63,991 nucleotides of DNA from Ignavibacteria bacterium. GTDB taxonomy: Bacteria > Bacteroidota > Ignavibacteria > Tepidaquicellales > Tepidaquicellaceae. The notes under the pieces are model-generated. The model did no database searches. It was not told where the DNA came from and worked only from the letters and a program-made list of their open reading frames with translations. Below are positions 34,595 through 42,121 of this stretch, piece after piece. How positions within the stretch are numbered: the first letter of the stretch is position 1; each line of letters begins with the position of its first letter. The position numbers and the translations under genes are program-made. The DNA lies in assembly GCA_016929695.1 (NCBI GenBank), contig JAFGII010000062.1, forward strand, positions 1-63,991, in the 5' to 3' direction.

Positions 34595-34873
34595 TTATTT
34601 ATTAATATCGTTCTTTGATTCGGATTTCACGGGCGGTTTTGGTTTATCTTTCTTGTCGGTTTTAATTTCTTTTTTCTGACTTTGTGTTTTCTTTGAGTAG
34701 TCGGTCAGATAAAATCCGCTTCCCTTGAATATTAATCCGGTACCGCCGCTGATTATTTTTTTCAGAGATTCTTTCCCGCATCTCGGGCATGTTTTCAAAG
34801 GTAAGTCTTTTATTGACTGAAATTTATCGAACTGAAATCCGCATTCACTGCATTTATACTCGTATATTGGCAT
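34595..34873 (-). CDS. FmdB-type zinc ribbon protein
   Basis: 92 residues. N-terminal [21 protein letters not shown] and [15 protein letters not shown]: a CxxC...CxxC zinc ribbon of the FmdB/CxxC_CXXC_SSSS family, often annotated as putative regulators. The Lys-rich C-terminus is unstructured. It follows the tubulin-like gene by 6 bases on the minus strand, suggesting cotranscription. Confidence 0.88.
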
Positions 34874-34879
34874 ATAATA

Positions 34880-37800
34880 TTAATTATCTATTATTTTTTT
34901 TCTTGCTTTGTTAAATTCTTCTTCGGAAATCAAACCTTCCTCATAAGCTTTTTTCAAGTCGCGTAATATTTTAAGCATTTTGCTTTCTTCAGGTGCACTT
35001 TGCATATCCGTTTTGGAAAAATCATACAGAATTTCCAGATTCAGTATACGTTTATCTCCGTCGCCGCACAGGTAAGAAAAATCGTCAAAATTATTTTTAA
35101 GTTTTAAAATGATTTTTGAATTCTGTTCAATGAATTCTTTCCCCAGTCTGTTCTCTATTTCTCTCGCAAGTTCACGGGTGACCTTATATTTAAATGATTC
35201 AATTTGTTTTACGCCTTTTCCGGAAGTTTCAATTTCTTCAATTCTGTAAATATTTTCATAGTAATATTCAAGAATGACCAGGAGATATAAATCAAGATTA
35301 TTTCTTGTTATATTTGATTTTATTTTTTCAACATCTTTTAATAGTATATTTCTCAGTGAGTCTTTGCCTTTTTCCTTGAATAATCTTGAAATTAATTTTG
35401 ATTCTATGCCTAACTGTTCGGTTCTTTTAACTGTAACACCTTCCTGTCTCGTAATTTTATATATCGCTCGTTTTTCGCCGGTGTATTTGTCAACTTCAAT
35501 TTCAATTTTAAATAAACCAAAAAGCAGACCAAGAAGATATGCTCTGAATGAATCGTTTAATCTGGACTTATCTTCTTTACTCAAAGGTATTATATCATCA
35601 AAAATAAATGAGTTTTTAGTGTTGTGCAGATCCACATTCTGATTTTCGGACAGAATGTTATAATAATTTTTCATATCCTCACAAACTGCTTTTACGTAGA
35701 AAAGCGGAAAACCTGCCCATTCCGAATAAAAAATTATTGTTGTACTGTCGGCGCTGTCTTTAAATTCTATTTCGGCATTTGTTATTGAATGAATTAAATT
35801 CCTGAATCTGCCGAAATATTCTCCGGAAGTTTTCAACCCGATGTATAATTTTTTTGCTGATTCGTCAAGTTTAAAACTGCCCGGTACATCGTTAAATTTT
35901 AACCATACGAAAGCGAGATTGAGTAAACTTCTGATGTTCGTTTCGCTTCTGATGGCATCTTTCTCGAATAATAATCTTACAATATCGTAGTCTGCTCTGA
36001 TATTTTCAAATTGTTTTCTGCAATATCCGGAAATTTTTTTGTCAATTGTTATGATATTTGAATCTTTAAGAATATTTACCATATCGGTAATATTTTCTGC
36101 ATTGAGTTCCTTTAATAATCCCTCCGAAACAGATTTAATTCTTTCTTCGGCATTTTTCCCCGTTCCGATATATGCGGGATAATATTCGTTCTCTATATCT
36201 TCCGGTGTATAAAGATAGTAGTTGAAACTGTTTTCGGGTTTCCCCGCAAAATAAATATATTTTTTGTTGAAATAATCTTTAAGAACTCCGAGATTACCGG
36301 TCAGTTTATTCAAGTCCGTGATTAGTCCCGTAAATTTAATTTTCCCTGTATCTGTTTTCTCGCCTTTCTCGATTAATAATAATATCCGCATTATAATATC
36401 CCTTGCATAATGTCTTGCGGAAATTTTTATTAACGTAGTGTAATATTCTTCGAGTATATTTATTAATTTTGACAGAGTACCCTGCATTGCGGGTTTTTTT
36501 AGTATGTTGAACTTAGAGCGTGATTCATCTTCTCTGAGGTCCTGAAATCTGCGTTTTAATTCCGATTCAATCCTCATAACTGATATCTGTAAATCTTTAA
36601 TATCTTTCTCCAGTTTAGGTAAATAGTCATAACTTTCGTTAGTGAACATAAACTGTAACCTTCTAAGTAAACCGATTGAATAAAAAACGCCTCTCGAAGG
36701 GTCATTTATGAGTGAATTGATTTTTTTCTCGATGAGTCCGGCTTTTCCGGTATTCCTTGTACCGATTAGTGTATCTGTTAATTTGGTTTTGTTCGAGTGA
36801 ATCTGGGCATAATACTGACCTAATCTCTTTATGTCATTATCATCTTTGAAGTTCGAATCGAATTTTTCTTTTTCGCTTAATATGAAAGATGTCCAGTTAT
36901 CGCCCTTTCTTCCGGAGGTTAGTGTATTTTCCAGACCTGATAAAAATTCTTTGATTTTCCCCTGAATAGATGACTTCTCGTCTATCCTGTACAAACTGTC
37001 AAGGAGCTGATGTTTATTACCATGTTCAAGAAGACCTGTGGAAGGAAGGAATTCGGTCAGGAGGTAATTATCAAGATTGCTCTGAGTTCCCTCTGCATAA
37101 GATAGATAATAATCAATAATTTCCGAACTCAGTTTATAAGTGCAGGCAAGTATTATTCTGTCAGCGGGAATTGAAATAGTTGACTGACCGATTGAGGAAT
37201 ATTTTCTGCAGTACAGGGAATTATCAACCGAATTATCCTCTGGCCAGAACCTCTGTTTATATTGAGTGAGATTTACTCTTACACCTCTTTTATAATTGGC
37301 GAAATCCGAATTTGAGAAATCGTGAAAAATAGAATCAGAAATCATTTTATAAATATCCCTGCTGCTTAAGTCCGACAGTGACAGGTTTTTTATGTTTTCG
37401 CCGTCAATTAGATATACATCATCATAAATTCCGGGTTGAAATTTATATTCTTCATTTTTCTTCCAGGATACATAAAACGGATTTTTAAAGTTATAGAATT
37501 CAAGTTCTTTCATTGCCGCATATCCGTTAGCGTAAATTCTCTCTTTCCCGTATCCCTGAAATATTTTCGGCAGAAGAAGAAAACATGCGGTTATTGCCTG
37601 ATTTTTAAACAGATGTCTCAGCAGGAATCCGAAATCTATAAACATTCCGGAACCTGTGCCTCCGCTTACTGATGAAATTACATAAATATTGATTTTTTCG
37701 GTAACGACATTTTTAATATTGTATCTGTTCTTAACTAAATTTATTGATTTGGGGTCCGTTATTCTTGATTTTGCCAGATTTAATTTCTGAACAATCTCGT

Positions 37801-38278
37801 CGTAATTGTGATAAAATGCAAGTCTTGCTGCCGGCCTGATTTGTCCTGCACCCGTATTCATCGTTCCGAGTTTCCCGATTTCTCCGCTTGTACTGAGCCA
37901 GGACTTTATATGCGGAACACTGTTCAGGGATTGAATGTAATCTGAAGGATTTACCGGATTGAATATTTTTTCCGAAGGTTGAAAATCTATTTCATTAATT
38001 AAATAATCTCTGTCCCTTGCCAGACCCGATTCTTCGGGTGGTGCATTGTCTGTGTCAATATAAAGATAGGATGTAATGGGAAAATCATTCAGCGAGCCGT
38101 ATCTTTCGACGAACTGCCTGCGTATTCTCAGAAGCACTTCTTTCCCTGTGCCTCCCAGTCCAATCATAATTGAAGGCATAAACTCCTGTATTCGGATGTC
38201 TGAGGAAATTAATGAATTGTTCGTTTTATCCGAATTATCATACAGACTGTCTTGGGCATCACTATTTTTCTCATTCAT
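34880..38278 (-). CDS. Large tubulin-like (Tubulin_2) protein
   Basis: 1132 residues. N-terminal nucleotide-binding elements: GLGGTG at residues 40-45, YIDTDNAPP near 73, AGQIRPAARLAF near 144 and the tubulin/FtsZ signature GGTGSG at 206-211, as in Pfam Tubulin_2. A long middle region is largely helical. The last about 30 residues (LRDLKKAYEEGLISEEEFNKARKKI) look like a SHOCT oligomerisation domain. The family is poorly characterised. No membrane segments. It lies downstream of the fatty-acid genes and 6 bases before FmdB. Could be a large cytoskeletal GTPase; function unknown. Confidence 0.8.
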   Translation of the reverse strand: MNEKNSDAQDSLYDNSDKTNNSLISSDIRIQEFMPSIMIGLGGTGKEVLLRIRRQFVERYGSLNDFPITSYLYIDTDNAPPEESGLARDRDYLINEIDFQPSEKIFNPVNPSDYIQSLNSVPHIKSWLSTSGEIGKLGTMNTGAGQIRPAARLAFYHNYDEIVQKLNLAKSRITDPKSINLVKNRYNIKNVVTEKINIYVISSVSGGTGSGMFIDFGFLLRHLFKNQAITACFLLLPKIFQGYGKERIYANGYAAMKELEFYNFKNPFYVSWKKNEEYKFQPGIYDDVYLIDGENIKNLSLSDLSSRDIYKMISDSIFHDFSNSDFANYKRGVRVNLTQYKQRFWPEDNSVDNSLYCRKYSSIGQSTISIPADRIILACTYKLSSEIIDYYLSYAEGTQSNLDNYLLTEFLPSTGLLEHGNKHQLLDSLYRIDEKSSIQGKIKEFLSGLENTLTSGRKGDNWTSFILSEKEKFDSNFKDDNDIKRLGQYYAQIHSNKTKLTDTLIGTRNTGKAGLIEKKINSLINDPSRGVFYSIGLLRRLQFMFTNESYDYLPKLEKDIKDLQISVMRIESELKRRFQDLREDESRSKFNILKKPAMQGTLSKLINILEEYYTTLIKISARHYARDIIMRILLLIEKGEKTDTGKIKFTGLITDLNKLTGNLGVLKDYFNKKYIYFAGKPENSFNYYLYTPEDIENEYYPAYIGTGKNAEERIKSVSEGLLKELNAENITDMVNILKDSNIITIDKKISGYCRKQFENIRADYDIVRLLFEKDAIRSETNIRSLLNLAFVWLKFNDVPGSFKLDESAKKLYIGLKTSGEYFGRFRNLIHSITNAEIEFKDSADSTTIIFYSEWAGFPLFYVKAVCEDMKNYYNILSENQNVDLHNTKNSFIFDDIIPLSKEDKSRLNDSFRAYLLGLLFGLFKIEIEVDKYTGEKRAIYKITRQEGVTVKRTEQLGIESKLISRLFKEKGKDSLRNILLKDVEKIKSNITRNNLDLYLLVILEYYYENIYRIEEIETSGKGVKQIESFKYKVTRELAREIENRLGKEFIEQNSKIILKLKNNFDDFSYLCGDGDKRILNLEILYDFSKTDMQSAPEESKMLKILRDLKKAYEEGLISEEEFNKARKKIIDN

Positions 38279-38322: not shown

Positions 38323-39120
38323 TTATAATTCCGTAATACTTTCACCGCCGTCAACATGAATAACGCATCCTGTCATCCAGTGAGAATCACGTTTATAGTT
38401 ATCGAGTATTAAATTAGCTATATCTTCGGGCGTGGTTAATCGACCGTGCGGATTTCTTCTCAGTGCGTTCTGAATTATTATTTCACTTCCGGGAATTTTT
38501 TTCAGTGCGGGTGTATCTGTAACGCCTGCAAGTATTGCGTTTGCGGCTATGCCTTTTTTTCCGAGTTCGAATGCGAGCTGTCTTATATGTGATTCGAGGC
38601 AGGATTTGGCTGCTGAAACGGCACCGTAATAATTTATTACCTTGGAACTTCCGGAGGAGGTCATTGCAAAAATTTTCCCTCCCGATATCATTAATTTGCG
38701 GGAGATTATATCCTGAGACCAGTACACAAGCGAATTAGCCATTACATCAATTGTCATTTCAAGTTGTTTCTGATTGATTGCTTTAGAAGTATCTTCTTCA
38801 ATGAAATTTTTTAATGTACCGAAAGCGAGTGAATGGACAAGAACTTTTACAGTCGAATTTTTCTTATCCTTAAAAATATTTTCAATACTGTCAAGAATTT
38901 CCTTTCTTTTATGGGGGTCAGCGGCATTTGCGTTAAAAAAATGTACATCGGAACCGGTATCTTTCAGTATTCTTATATGTGCTTCTACATCAGGCATCGT
39001 TGTCGCTCTGTCAAGGTGAATCCCGATTATGTTTACTCCGTCTTTTGCTAAAGCAAGCGATATTGCTTTCCCGAATCCGCTTGATGCACCGAGTATTAAT
39101 GCATATAAATTGTTTGACAT
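38323..39120 (-). CDS. Enoyl-ACP reductase-like SDR (FabI/FabL type)
   Basis: 265 residues. Rossmann start LILGASSGFGKAISLALAKDG and the active-site pattern Y-x6-K in YYGAVSAAKSCLESHIRQLA: the long spacing typical of enoyl reductases rather than Y-x3-K classical SDRs. Ends with MTGCVIHVDGGESI. Placed next to accB and accC, it probably reduces the enoyl-ACP intermediate in fatty-acid elongation. FabL or another SDR cannot be excluded. Confidence 0.8.
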   Translation of the reverse strand: MSNNLYALILGASSGFGKAISLALAKDGVNIIGIHLDRATTMPDVEAHIRILKDTGSDVHFFNANAADPHKRKEILDSIENIFKDKKNSTVKVLVHSLAFGTLKNFIEEDTSKAINQKQLEMTIDVMANSLVYWSQDIISRKLMISGGKIFAMTSSGSSKVINYYGAVSAAKSCLESHIRQLAFELGKKGIAANAILAGVTDTPALKKIPGSEIIIQNALRRNPHGRLTTPEDIANLILDNYKRDSHWMTGCVIHVDGGESITEL

Positions 39121-39125
39121 TTTAA

Positions 39126-39626
39126 TTATTTACTTTTTAATGCTATTAAAGTCGTTATTAAACTCAGAACGAAAAGAAAAACAATTATGAGAATGAAAGA
39201 AGATGATGTCCAGAATGAAGCCAGCAGGCCCCATATAATAAAAATCCAGATTACCGATACTACAAAAAACGAACTCCAGCTTAACATCATTGCCTGCCTT
39301 GAACTTCTTGTCTTATGAAATGTTCTGAACAGGGACAGTACAAATATATAAAAGAATAATGCCATTCCGCCTGCGGTTAACACAATATATATAAACAGTT
39401 TTGTATTCGTCAGGATTTTACCTGTTTCCGGAATCGTTAAGGAAGTGTCAATTTCGGTTTGTTGTAAATCACCGGGAAGCGTATCAGTCTGAACATCTTT
39501 TACGGTATCAATCATCACCGGGTTTTGAATAACCTGATTATTAACTTCAGTTGTATCGGCATACAGAAGGTTAACGCCGGTTAATGCCGAAAAAATAATT
39601 GCAGTAATTAAAATTTTTATTTTCAT
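39126..39626 (-). CDS. Small membrane protein between accC and the SDR
   Basis: 166 residues. Signal-like N-terminus (MKIKILITAIIFSALTGVNLL), a polar stretch of about 50 residues, then three transmembrane helices (LFIYIVLTAGGMALFFYIFVL, MLSWSSFFVVSVIWIFIIWG, SSFILIIVFLFVLSLITTLI) ending in KSK. No family recognised. Close spacing (5 and 7 bases) to its neighbours suggests it is part of the same operon. Confidence 0.7.
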   Translation of the reverse strand: MKIKILITAIIFSALTGVNLLYADTTEVNNQVIQNPVMIDTVKDVQTDTLPGDLQQTEIDTSLTIPETGKILTNTKLFIYIVLTAGGMALFFYIFVLSLFRTFHKTRSSRQAMMLSWSSFFVVSVIWIFIIWGLLASFWTSSSFILIIVFLFVLSLITTLIALKSK

Positions 39627-39633
39627 ATAATTG

Positions 39634-40977
39634 TTAGACTTCTATTTCCTTTCTGTTTTCAATAAAATTAGTATCATAATTGTTTTTAACAAAGCTCTTG
39701 TTACTCATAATTTCCTGAAATAACGGAATTGTAGTGGAAATTCCTTCTATTATAAATTCTTCTAAAGCTCTTGACATTCTTTTTATTGCTTCATTCCTTG
39801 AATCGGCTTTTACAATCAATTTGCCGAGCAAAGAATCGTAATCAGAAGGGACTTTGTATCCCGCATAGCAGTGTGTATCAAGTCTGACGCCGTATCCGCC
39901 GGGTGAGTGAAATGCGGTTATCATGCCGCCTGAAGGCTTGAAATTGTTGTATGTATCTTCAGCATTAATCCTGCATTCGATTGAATATCCTTCAAATTTA
40001 ATTTTCTTTCTGCTTATTTTTTGTCCCTGCGCTATTCTGATTTGTTCTTTAATGAAATCAATGTTTGTAACTTCTTCCGTTATGGGATGTTCAACCTGAA
40101 GTCTTGTATTCATCTCCATAAAATAATAATTTTGTTTATCGTCAACAATAAACTCTACTGTACCTGCATTAATATAGCCGAATGAACCTGCAACTTTCAA
40201 TGCCTCTTCCTGAATTTTCAATCTGGTATCTCCGGTTATGAACGGAGACGGTGTTTCTTCAATTAATTTTTGATGCCGCCTTTGAATTGTACAATCCCTC
40301 TCACCGATATGAATCAGGTTTCCGTGAGTATCACCTAAAACCTGTATTTCTATATGCCTTGGCTTTTCTACTAATTTTTCTATATAAATTTCATCGTTTC
40401 CGAAAGAACTTTTTGCTTCGTACTTTGTCATATTTAAAGCACTTTCTAAGTGAGATGGTTCTGTTACAGTTCTCATTCCTTTTCCGCCTCCGCCTGCTGA
40501 TGCTTTTAATATAACCGGATAACCGATTTTTTCCGCGATTTCTTTTGCTTCATAATGATTTTCCACCGGATTTTCGCTTCCTTCTATTACGGGAACGCCG
40601 ATTTTTTTCATATTATTTTTTGCGGATAGTTTATCACCCATATATCTTATCATTTCGGGAGTCGGACCGATAAAAATTAATTTCGAATCAATACATATTT
40701 CTGCAAATTCAGCATTTTCTGCAAGAAAACCGTATCCCGGATGTATTGCATCTGAATTCGTTATCTCTGCTGCAGCTATAATTCTCGGTACGTTTAAATA
40801 GCTTTGCGTTGCGGATGCAGGTCCGATACATACCGCTTCATCTGCAAATCTGACATGAAGGGAATTTTTGTCCGCTTCGGAATATATAGCTACTGTCTTT
40901 ATTTCCAGTTCCTTGCATGTCCTGATAATCCGAAGTGCAATTTCACCTCTGTTTGCTATCAGTATTTTTTTTATCAT
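39634..40977 (-). CDS. accC: Acetyl-CoA carboxylase biotin carboxylase
   Basis: 447 residues. ATP-grasp enzyme that carboxylates biotin on AccB. Signatures: [18 protein letters not shown] at the N-terminus, [12 protein letters not shown] (ATP loop), and [16 protein letters not shown] (active-site region). Length and order with accB are typical. accB lies 70 bases upstream on the same strand. Confidence 0.97.
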
Positions 40978-41557: not shown

Positions 41558-42121
41558 TTATTTTTTTACTCTTTCAAGATATTCGGATGTGCGCGTATCG
41601 ACTTTAATTATATCCCCTTCATTTATAAATAATGGGGCATTAATTAGCGCTCCTGTTTCCACTGTAACCTGTTTTGTAACGTTTGTGGCTGTATTGCCTT
41701 TCACTCCGGGTGGAGCCGATATAACTTTCAGTTCAACGTGTGGCGGCATATCCATTGATAAAGGATTTCCGTCGTGAAAATTAATCTGTATATTCTGACC
41801 TCCTTTTATAAAATGTCCCTGCTCGCCTACAATTTCTTCGCTAATATGAATCTGGTCATATGTATCATTATCCATAAAATAATAATTATCTCCGTCTTTA
41901 TATAAGAATTGAAAATTTTTCTGCTCGAGTCTTTCAATCTCAACCGTTTCACCTGAACGGAAGCGGTTTTCTATCATTTTGCCGTTGATTAAATTTCTCA
42001 TTTTTACCTGATAAAAAGCCCTTAAATTACCCGGAGTTCTGTGTTCTACGGAAACAACGGTGTGTAATTCGCCGTTGAACTTTATTATCGTTCCTACCCT
42101 TAAGTCTGATGTTGTAGCCAT
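41558..42121 (-). CDS. efp: Translation elongation factor P
   Basis: 187 residues, three beta-barrel domains. The loop that reaches the peptidyl-transferase centre reads HRTPGNLRAF, so the residue equivalent to E. coli Lys34 (after PG) is Asn32, with Arg at 34. C-terminal TRTSEYLERV is typical. EF-P relieves stalling at polyproline; the window itself encodes polyproline proteins such as the 1165-residue secreted one. Divergent from gap. Confidence 0.95.
   Translation of the reverse strand: MATTSDLRVGTIIKFNGELHTVVSVEHRTPGNLRAFYQVKMRNLINGKMIENRFRSGETVEIERLEQKNFQFLYKDGDNYYFMDNDTYDQIHISEEIVGEQGHFIKGGQNIQINFHDGNPLSMDMPPHVELKVISAPPGVKGNTATNVTKQVTVETGALINAPLFINEGDIIKVDTRTSEYLERVKK

Follow-up and report, generated by a model that had tools for sequence, protein, structure and literature searches.

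A Tubulin_2-family protein and a co-lost membrane protein in a fatty-acid gene cluster of Ignavibacteria

What does a second, very large tubulin relative do in a bacterium that also has FtsZ, and how would it reach the membrane? This question is raised by a gene in the window analyzed here, a 63,991-nucleotide stretch of an uncultured Ignavibacteria bacterium (contig JAFGII010000062.1) whose genome assembly has 2.78 Mb in 124 contigs. The gene (34,880-38,278; this gene and all others of its cluster lie on the minus strand) encodes a 1132-residue protein, here called TUB2, of the FtsZl1/Tubulin_2 family. That family was described in 2010 and predicted to act in membrane remodelling (Makarova & Koonin, PMC2875224), and in the literature that we searched we found no experimental study of it after that year. 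The initial annotation of this locus had the protein's length right; its range, 34,595-38,278, also took in a separate zinc-ribbon gene at 34,595-34,873. We find that TUB2 is vertically inherited under purifying selection at a fixed syntenic locus in one Ignavibacteria family, where it has apparently been lost twice together with a nearby gene for a small membrane protein, TM39126. Our favored reading, which we regard as an even call, is that TUB2 and TM39126 may together make up a tubulin-like GTPase scaffold that is anchored in the membrane and organises envelope or lipids.

Family, domains and fold of TUB2

TUB2 is a member of the known FtsZl1/Tubulin_2 family. The Pfam profile Tubulin_2 (PF13809) matches residues 37-388 (37,115-38,170) along profile positions 1-355 of 356 with an E value of 1.3e-68 and 232 bits against a curated cut-off of 27, and TUB2 is the single Tubulin_2 gene of the window genome. 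Four motifs, each invariant among 15 TUB2 orthologues, lie in this domain. GLGGTG (residues 40-45; 38,144-38,161) follows the first strand in both structure models described below and takes the T1-loop position, DTDN occupies residues 75-78, AGQIRP (residues 144-149; 37,832-37,849) has a T3-like position from a weak local alignment to T3 of FtsZ, and GGTGSG (residues 206-211; 37,646-37,663) is the T4 phosphate loop. When four more distant Tubulin_2 proteins, one truncated where its contig stops, are aligned as well, invariance still holds for the GGTGSG loop, for GQ.R (G145, Q146 and R148 of AGQIRP) and for N251, Y253, E258 and N295, the numbering of these last four being shifted by 24. The Tubulin_2 assignment that the initial annotation drew from the motifs and the large size is thus borne out by both profile and conservation.

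Outside this domain, residues 1-30 are variable, and about 740 residues extend C-terminal of it. Residues ~400-1080 are conserved and, in a low-confidence model, mostly helical, with no Pfam match over cut-off. They are followed by a variable linker (residues 1081-1104), whose region is less conserved than any other in TUB2, and by a SHOCT-like tail (residues 1105-1129; 34,892-34,966). The Pfam SHOCT profile (PF09851) matches the C-terminal 25 residues with E 1e-5 and 25.5 bits, which is below the cut-off of 27, yet it also matches in 15 of 15 TUB2 orthologues (E ≤ 0.01); the initial annotation's description of the end as SHOCT-like holds. Syntenic orthologues occur family-wide, are mostly full-length and are 53-63% identical, and the ratio of nonsynonymous to synonymous substitution rates (dN/dS) is ~0.01-0.03 where measurable; for these two reasons TUB2 is no chance open reading frame (ORF). 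All 20 named relatives come from Ignavibacteria/Ignavibacteriae or unspecified Bacteroidetes assemblies.

The initial annotation named a GGTGSG site outside a tubulin fold as one observation that would count against it; structure prediction did not refute it. A template-free AlphaFold2 model of residues 25-400, itself of low confidence (predicted local distance difference test score, pLDDT, 44.9; predicted template modelling score, pTM, 0.49), gives the N-terminal part of TUB2 a tubulin-superfamily GTPase fold. With this model Foldseek finds CetZ best (E 3e-4, probability 1.0), then gamma-tubulin, TubZ and FtsZ, and its best 50 rows are all of the tubulin superfamily except one unrelated row. 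VIA-align returns Z values of 14.5 for gamma-tubulin, 14.1 for CetZ and 13.0 for BtubA over ~190-214 residues, well over the background that the tool quotes, and the 50 entries listed are tubulins, gamma-tubulins, CetZ or tubulin-containing complexes. The match covers the GTPase domain and stops near helix 7, and a Pfam scan found no C-terminal tubulin or FtsZ domain in TUB2. A full-length AlphaFold2 model (pLDDT 46.6) had no significant Foldseek match and was not used for fold claims.

At the sequence level, comparison with the FtsZ profile aligns only T1, T3 and T4 and stays below significance (hhalign probability 2.6%; hmmsearch E 0.1), which is why the tubulin claim rests on the fold and the Tubulin_2 profile. 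Single-sequence and profile searches found no relatives of TUB2 among solved structures. The motif SDFANYKR (residues 324-331) was weighed as a candidate for the catalytic T7 loop and dropped, as both models put the likely helix 7 at ~372-395, after the motif.

Co-occurrence and co-loss of TUB2 and TM39126

The gene at 39,126-39,626 encodes TM39126, a 166-residue membrane protein and candidate partner of TUB2. By hydropathy it has a signal-peptide-like start, a variable stretch and three hydrophobic helices. Between helices 1 and 2 lies a conserved basic loop, FRTFHKTRSSRQ (39,294-39,329), predicted to be cytoplasmic from its positive charges, in which F100, F103, H104, S108, R110 and Q111 are invariant; the helices are conserved too. 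TM39126 has no Pfam match over cut-off and no NCBIfam match. We found orthologues in 22 of 23 TUB2-positive genomes, and in the 23rd a contig end cuts through TUB2. Among the TUB2-negative genomes of the family, one in six has TM39126 (Fisher p 3e-4 for the contrast between the two groups, phylogeny ignored). In that genome, G026, TM39126, the SDR gene that lies between TM39126 and TUB2, and an MFS-like gene are present, and an unrelated reading frame replaces TUB2 near the contig start (L059:1-3200), a state that reflects loss, rearrangement or misassembly.

Three genomes (G001, G002 and G017) lack both TUB2 and TM39126 and keep accB, accC, the SDR gene and the zinc-ribbon gene. Where the two genes have been lost the junctions are clean (less than ~60 bp), and the evidence includes a closed chromosome among G001 and G002. 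One deletion cannot take TUB2 and TM39126 and spare the SDR gene, because the latter lies between them. The species tree, with 100% support at its key nodes, groups the window genome with G001 and G002, then with G017, and nests this group in the TUB2-positive clade. Two independent joint losses of TUB2 and TM39126 are the simplest history; one loss after which both genes returned to their former positions is much less probable. TM39126 is the most informative neighbour of TUB2, and the initial annotation, which proposed conserved neighbours in relatives as a check, overlooked it.

Compared with sister genera, TUB2 and TM39126 have also diverged more quickly in the window lineage, and the flanking genes have not (window lineage versus G010: TUB2 58.9% versus 70.3%, TM39126 47.0 versus 52.7, flanks 66.2 versus 66.8), as if constraint on the pair had eased in this lineage. 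Two further genomes have interrupted TUB2 genes. The copy in G006 (L020/L028) is interrupted by a stop with its N-terminus split, and that in G022 (L023/L025) is split in two and lacks some of its middle part; either decay or assembly error would account for these.

Gene neighbourhood, inheritance and distant relatives

The cluster around TUB2 reads efp-accB-accC-TM39126-SDR-TUB2-zinc ribbon and faces lptB and pdxJ. It comprises efp (elongation factor P; 41,558-42,121) and accC (acetyl-CoA/biotin carboxylase; 39,634-40,977), both assigned from translation and synteny (conserved synteny for accC), accB (biotin carboxyl carrier protein, NCBIfam TIGR00531; 41,048-41,527), an SDR that is a FabL-like enoyl-acyl carrier protein reductase (38,323-39,120) and a 92-residue FmdB-family zinc-ribbon protein, the last two assigned by Pfam and NCBIfam. 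The fatty-acid genes upstream and the zinc-ribbon neighbour were correctly read in the initial annotation. Spacing in the window is tight, with 7 bp between accC and TM39126, 5 bp to the SDR gene, 44 bp to TUB2 and 6 bp to the zinc-ribbon gene. Among TUB2-positive family genomes with long enough contigs this order is kept; genus g8 alone departs from it, with an additional gene for an MFS-like transporter separating SDR from TUB2 (L043:11416-12639 and L044:11920-13173, both minus strand). The locus is fixed on the chromosome in more than 10 genera, and the TUB2 tree is broadly congruent with a species tree from nine flanking genes.

In the sister family efp-accB-accC is present and the downstream genes TM39126, SDR, TUB2 and zinc ribbon are not near it; this part was therefore gained in, or lost outside, the family of TUB2. 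A survey of 395 genomes of the phylum gave a Tubulin_2 match in 12, over the cut-off in 9. The conserved neighbours of TUB2 include no vWA, OmpA, kinase or P-loop GTPase partners, and the initial annotation's remark that no vWA gene lies nearby holds for its whole contig, on which VWA_2 has no match. We set aside vWA genes elsewhere in the genome as uninformative, since they occur in genomes with and without TUB2. PADLOC defence profiles gave no match (best E 0.33).

The nearest full-length relative that we found is a protein of L095 in the Bacteroidota genome G115 (~930 columns aligned, E 2e-45), which has GYF_2 at its tail instead of SHOCT and has essentially no relatives among genomes of its order; viral contigs searched with it gave no match. 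Directly upstream of this Tubulin_2 gene is a 133-residue three-helix gene (L095:10693-11094, minus strand), and on Azospirillum plasmid p2 a Tubulin_2 gene with a GYF_2 tail is directly preceded by a gene for a 151-residue three-helix protein (L128:11471-11926, plus strand). These two small proteins are homologous (32% identity, E 6e-12) and belong to no Pfam family. A small protein with three hydrophobic segments is encoded directly upstream, on the same strand, at L093, L095, L096, L099 and on the Azospirillum plasmid, that is, at 5 of 10 distant Tubulin_2 loci versus a baseline of 3.5% among ORFs sampled from the sequences retrieved. As this count was made after the pattern had been seen (post hoc p ~1e-5), we treat the recurrence as a lead only. 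TM39126 has no significant homology to the three-helix proteins of L096, L099 or Azospirillum.

Other settings of distant Tubulin_2 genes are varied. At L099:368-8455 (G333) a 528-residue Tubulin_2-like protein is followed by a 1166-residue protein, and this locus further encodes an OmpA-like C-terminus and, judged by eye, a protein resembling a TerD-type domain. On a Thermus oshimai plasmid (L129:5703-15354) a vWA-Tubulin_2 pair has a TROVE-domain gene on one side and a BrxL gene on the other, which suggests a conflict- or RNA-related setting, and several caspase-family, OmpA-family and DUF4384 genes surround Tubulin_2 on the Azospirillum plasmid (L128:7448-23066). None of the vWA, OmpA and caspase-family genes seen by distant Tubulin_2 genes lies beside TUB2.

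A proposed membrane scaffold, its rivals and known systems

TUB2 resembles other FtsZl1 proteins in having an N-terminal tubulin-like GTPase domain with GGTGSG and a very long, mostly helical C-terminal part, in coexisting with canonical FtsZ and in its predicted link to the membrane. Unlike many of them it is without vWA, P-loop GTPase, kinase or OmpA neighbours; since such operon partners are common but not obligatory in FtsZl1, the membership of TUB2 stands on profile and fold. New are the fatty-acid and elongation factor P setting, the SHOCT-like tail fixed in the subfamily, the co-lost membrane protein and the upstream three-helix genes of distant members; of these, the first three set TUB2 apart from other FtsZl1 proteins, as does its vertical inheritance within the family from the patchy distribution of FtsZl1. 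The GYF_2-tailed proteins of L095 and Azospirillum p2 come close, with a small three-helix membrane gene upstream (directly so in their case) and a short C-terminal adaptor, but their tail is GYF_2 and their neighbours are vWA-like (by eye) or OmpA and caspase genes. The best structural matches to the predicted TUB2 domain, CetZ, BtubA and gamma-tubulin, are 11-18% identical in the aligned part and have a C-terminal tubulin domain that we did not detect in TUB2. FtsZ shares with TUB2 the tubulin-superfamily GTPase fold and the arrangement of globular part, variable linker and short conserved tail; TUB2, however, is more than twice as long, is without the FtsZ C-terminal domain and is dispensable.

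Members of the tubulin superfamily undergo GTP-dependent assembly, and FtsZ joins its globular domain through a variable linker to a conserved C-terminal peptide that binds membrane anchors. We infer a similar arrangement here, with TUB2 as a cytoplasmic GTPase paired with TM39126. Under the control of GTP the N-terminal tubulin domain would self-assemble into a scaffold that lines the cytoplasmic membrane on its inner side, the conserved and predicted cytoplasmic loop of TM39126 would contact it and hold it there, and the SHOCT-like tail, carried on a variable linker, would serve for docking, as the FtsZ C-terminal peptide does toward membrane anchors. Docking is preferred for the tail because TUB2 shares the FtsZ layout and because experiments in the paper defining SHOCT tested oligomerisation, did not support it and led to the suggestion of binding to other partners (PMC3581485); the SHOCT-driven oligomerisation put forward in the initial annotation fits less well. 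The pair would then organise membrane or envelope, and the position among fatty-acid and elongation factor P genes points to a house-keeping function in organising the envelope or the membrane lipids. Division is not the likely role, because each of the 14 genomes tested has canonical FtsZ, whether or not it carries TUB2; the window genome has its own on another contig (G000:C81).

Several observations weigh against this scaffold. Without the Tubulin/FtsZ C-terminal domain, known filament contacts may be missing, and at a pLDDT of 45, with residues 231-400 below 50, the base-contacting loops and the catalytic T7 loop cannot be placed. TUB2 is dispensable in two lineages, and G026, an incomplete genome, carries TM39126 without it. 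Homology of TM39126 to the distant three-helix proteins is not demonstrable (the best, to L095, has hhalign E 0.005 and probability 7%), and the literature searched held no biochemical data on any FtsZl1/Tubulin_2 member.

The missing C-terminal domain also favors a possible, if doubtful, alternative in which TUB2 is a non-polymerising GTPase switch: its tubulin domain would sense GTP, its long helical part would relay signals to partners, and TM39126 would be a sensor in the membrane or a subunit of a transporter. The 2010 study could not identify T6-H7 of FtsZl1 and left a non-filament-forming FtsZl1 possible, and a reviewer there proposed transport or signalling; however, the same study notes that every superfamily member characterised by then formed filaments (PMC2875224), and the GTPase domain of TUB2 matches tubulins through the helix-7 region. 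Tight spacing from accC to the zinc-ribbon gene and the order conserved across genera could mean that TUB2 and TM39126 have a direct part in fatty-acid synthesis, such as holding AccBC and the enoyl reductase together on a membrane scaffold. We consider this improbable, as co-transcription alone accounts for the gene order and as accB, accC and the SDR gene persist after loss of both genes, so these enzymes do not need them.

A place in a conflict or defence system would fit the vWA genes adjoining distant relatives (L097, L098 and the Thermus plasmid) and the OmpA and caspase-family genes on the Azospirillum plasmid. For TUB2 itself this is very improbable, because it is inherited vertically at one fixed chromosomal locus, with a congruent tree, under strong purifying selection, and because its family has neither such neighbours nor a PADLOC match. 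We give just as little credence to TUB2 being on its way out in the window genome as a relaxed gene of reduced function. Its excess divergence there, shared with TM39126, and its absence from G001, G002 and G017, sister species among them, would agree with decay, but the full-length frame and the nucleotide-loop motifs are kept, and such decay concerns the lineage rather than what the TUB2 system does.

Few tubulin relatives have diverged as far as the FtsZl1/Tubulin_2 proteins. According to the 2010 study their operons hold many lineage-specific membrane proteins (PMC2875224), and elsewhere they stand in larger, variable operons that hamper genetics; here the system is cut down to two co-lost genes. 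The TUB2-TM39126 pair is small and testable and is a candidate answer to how FtsZl1 reaches the membrane. More tentatively, it may be a minimal two-protein membrane-tethered tubulin cytoskeleton, in which a GTPase and a three-helix anchor would be the common core of many FtsZl1 systems across phyla, with vWA, OmpA and other partners as add-ons. If three-helix anchors are indeed general, the long-standing prediction that FtsZl1 proteins remodel membranes would become directly testable.

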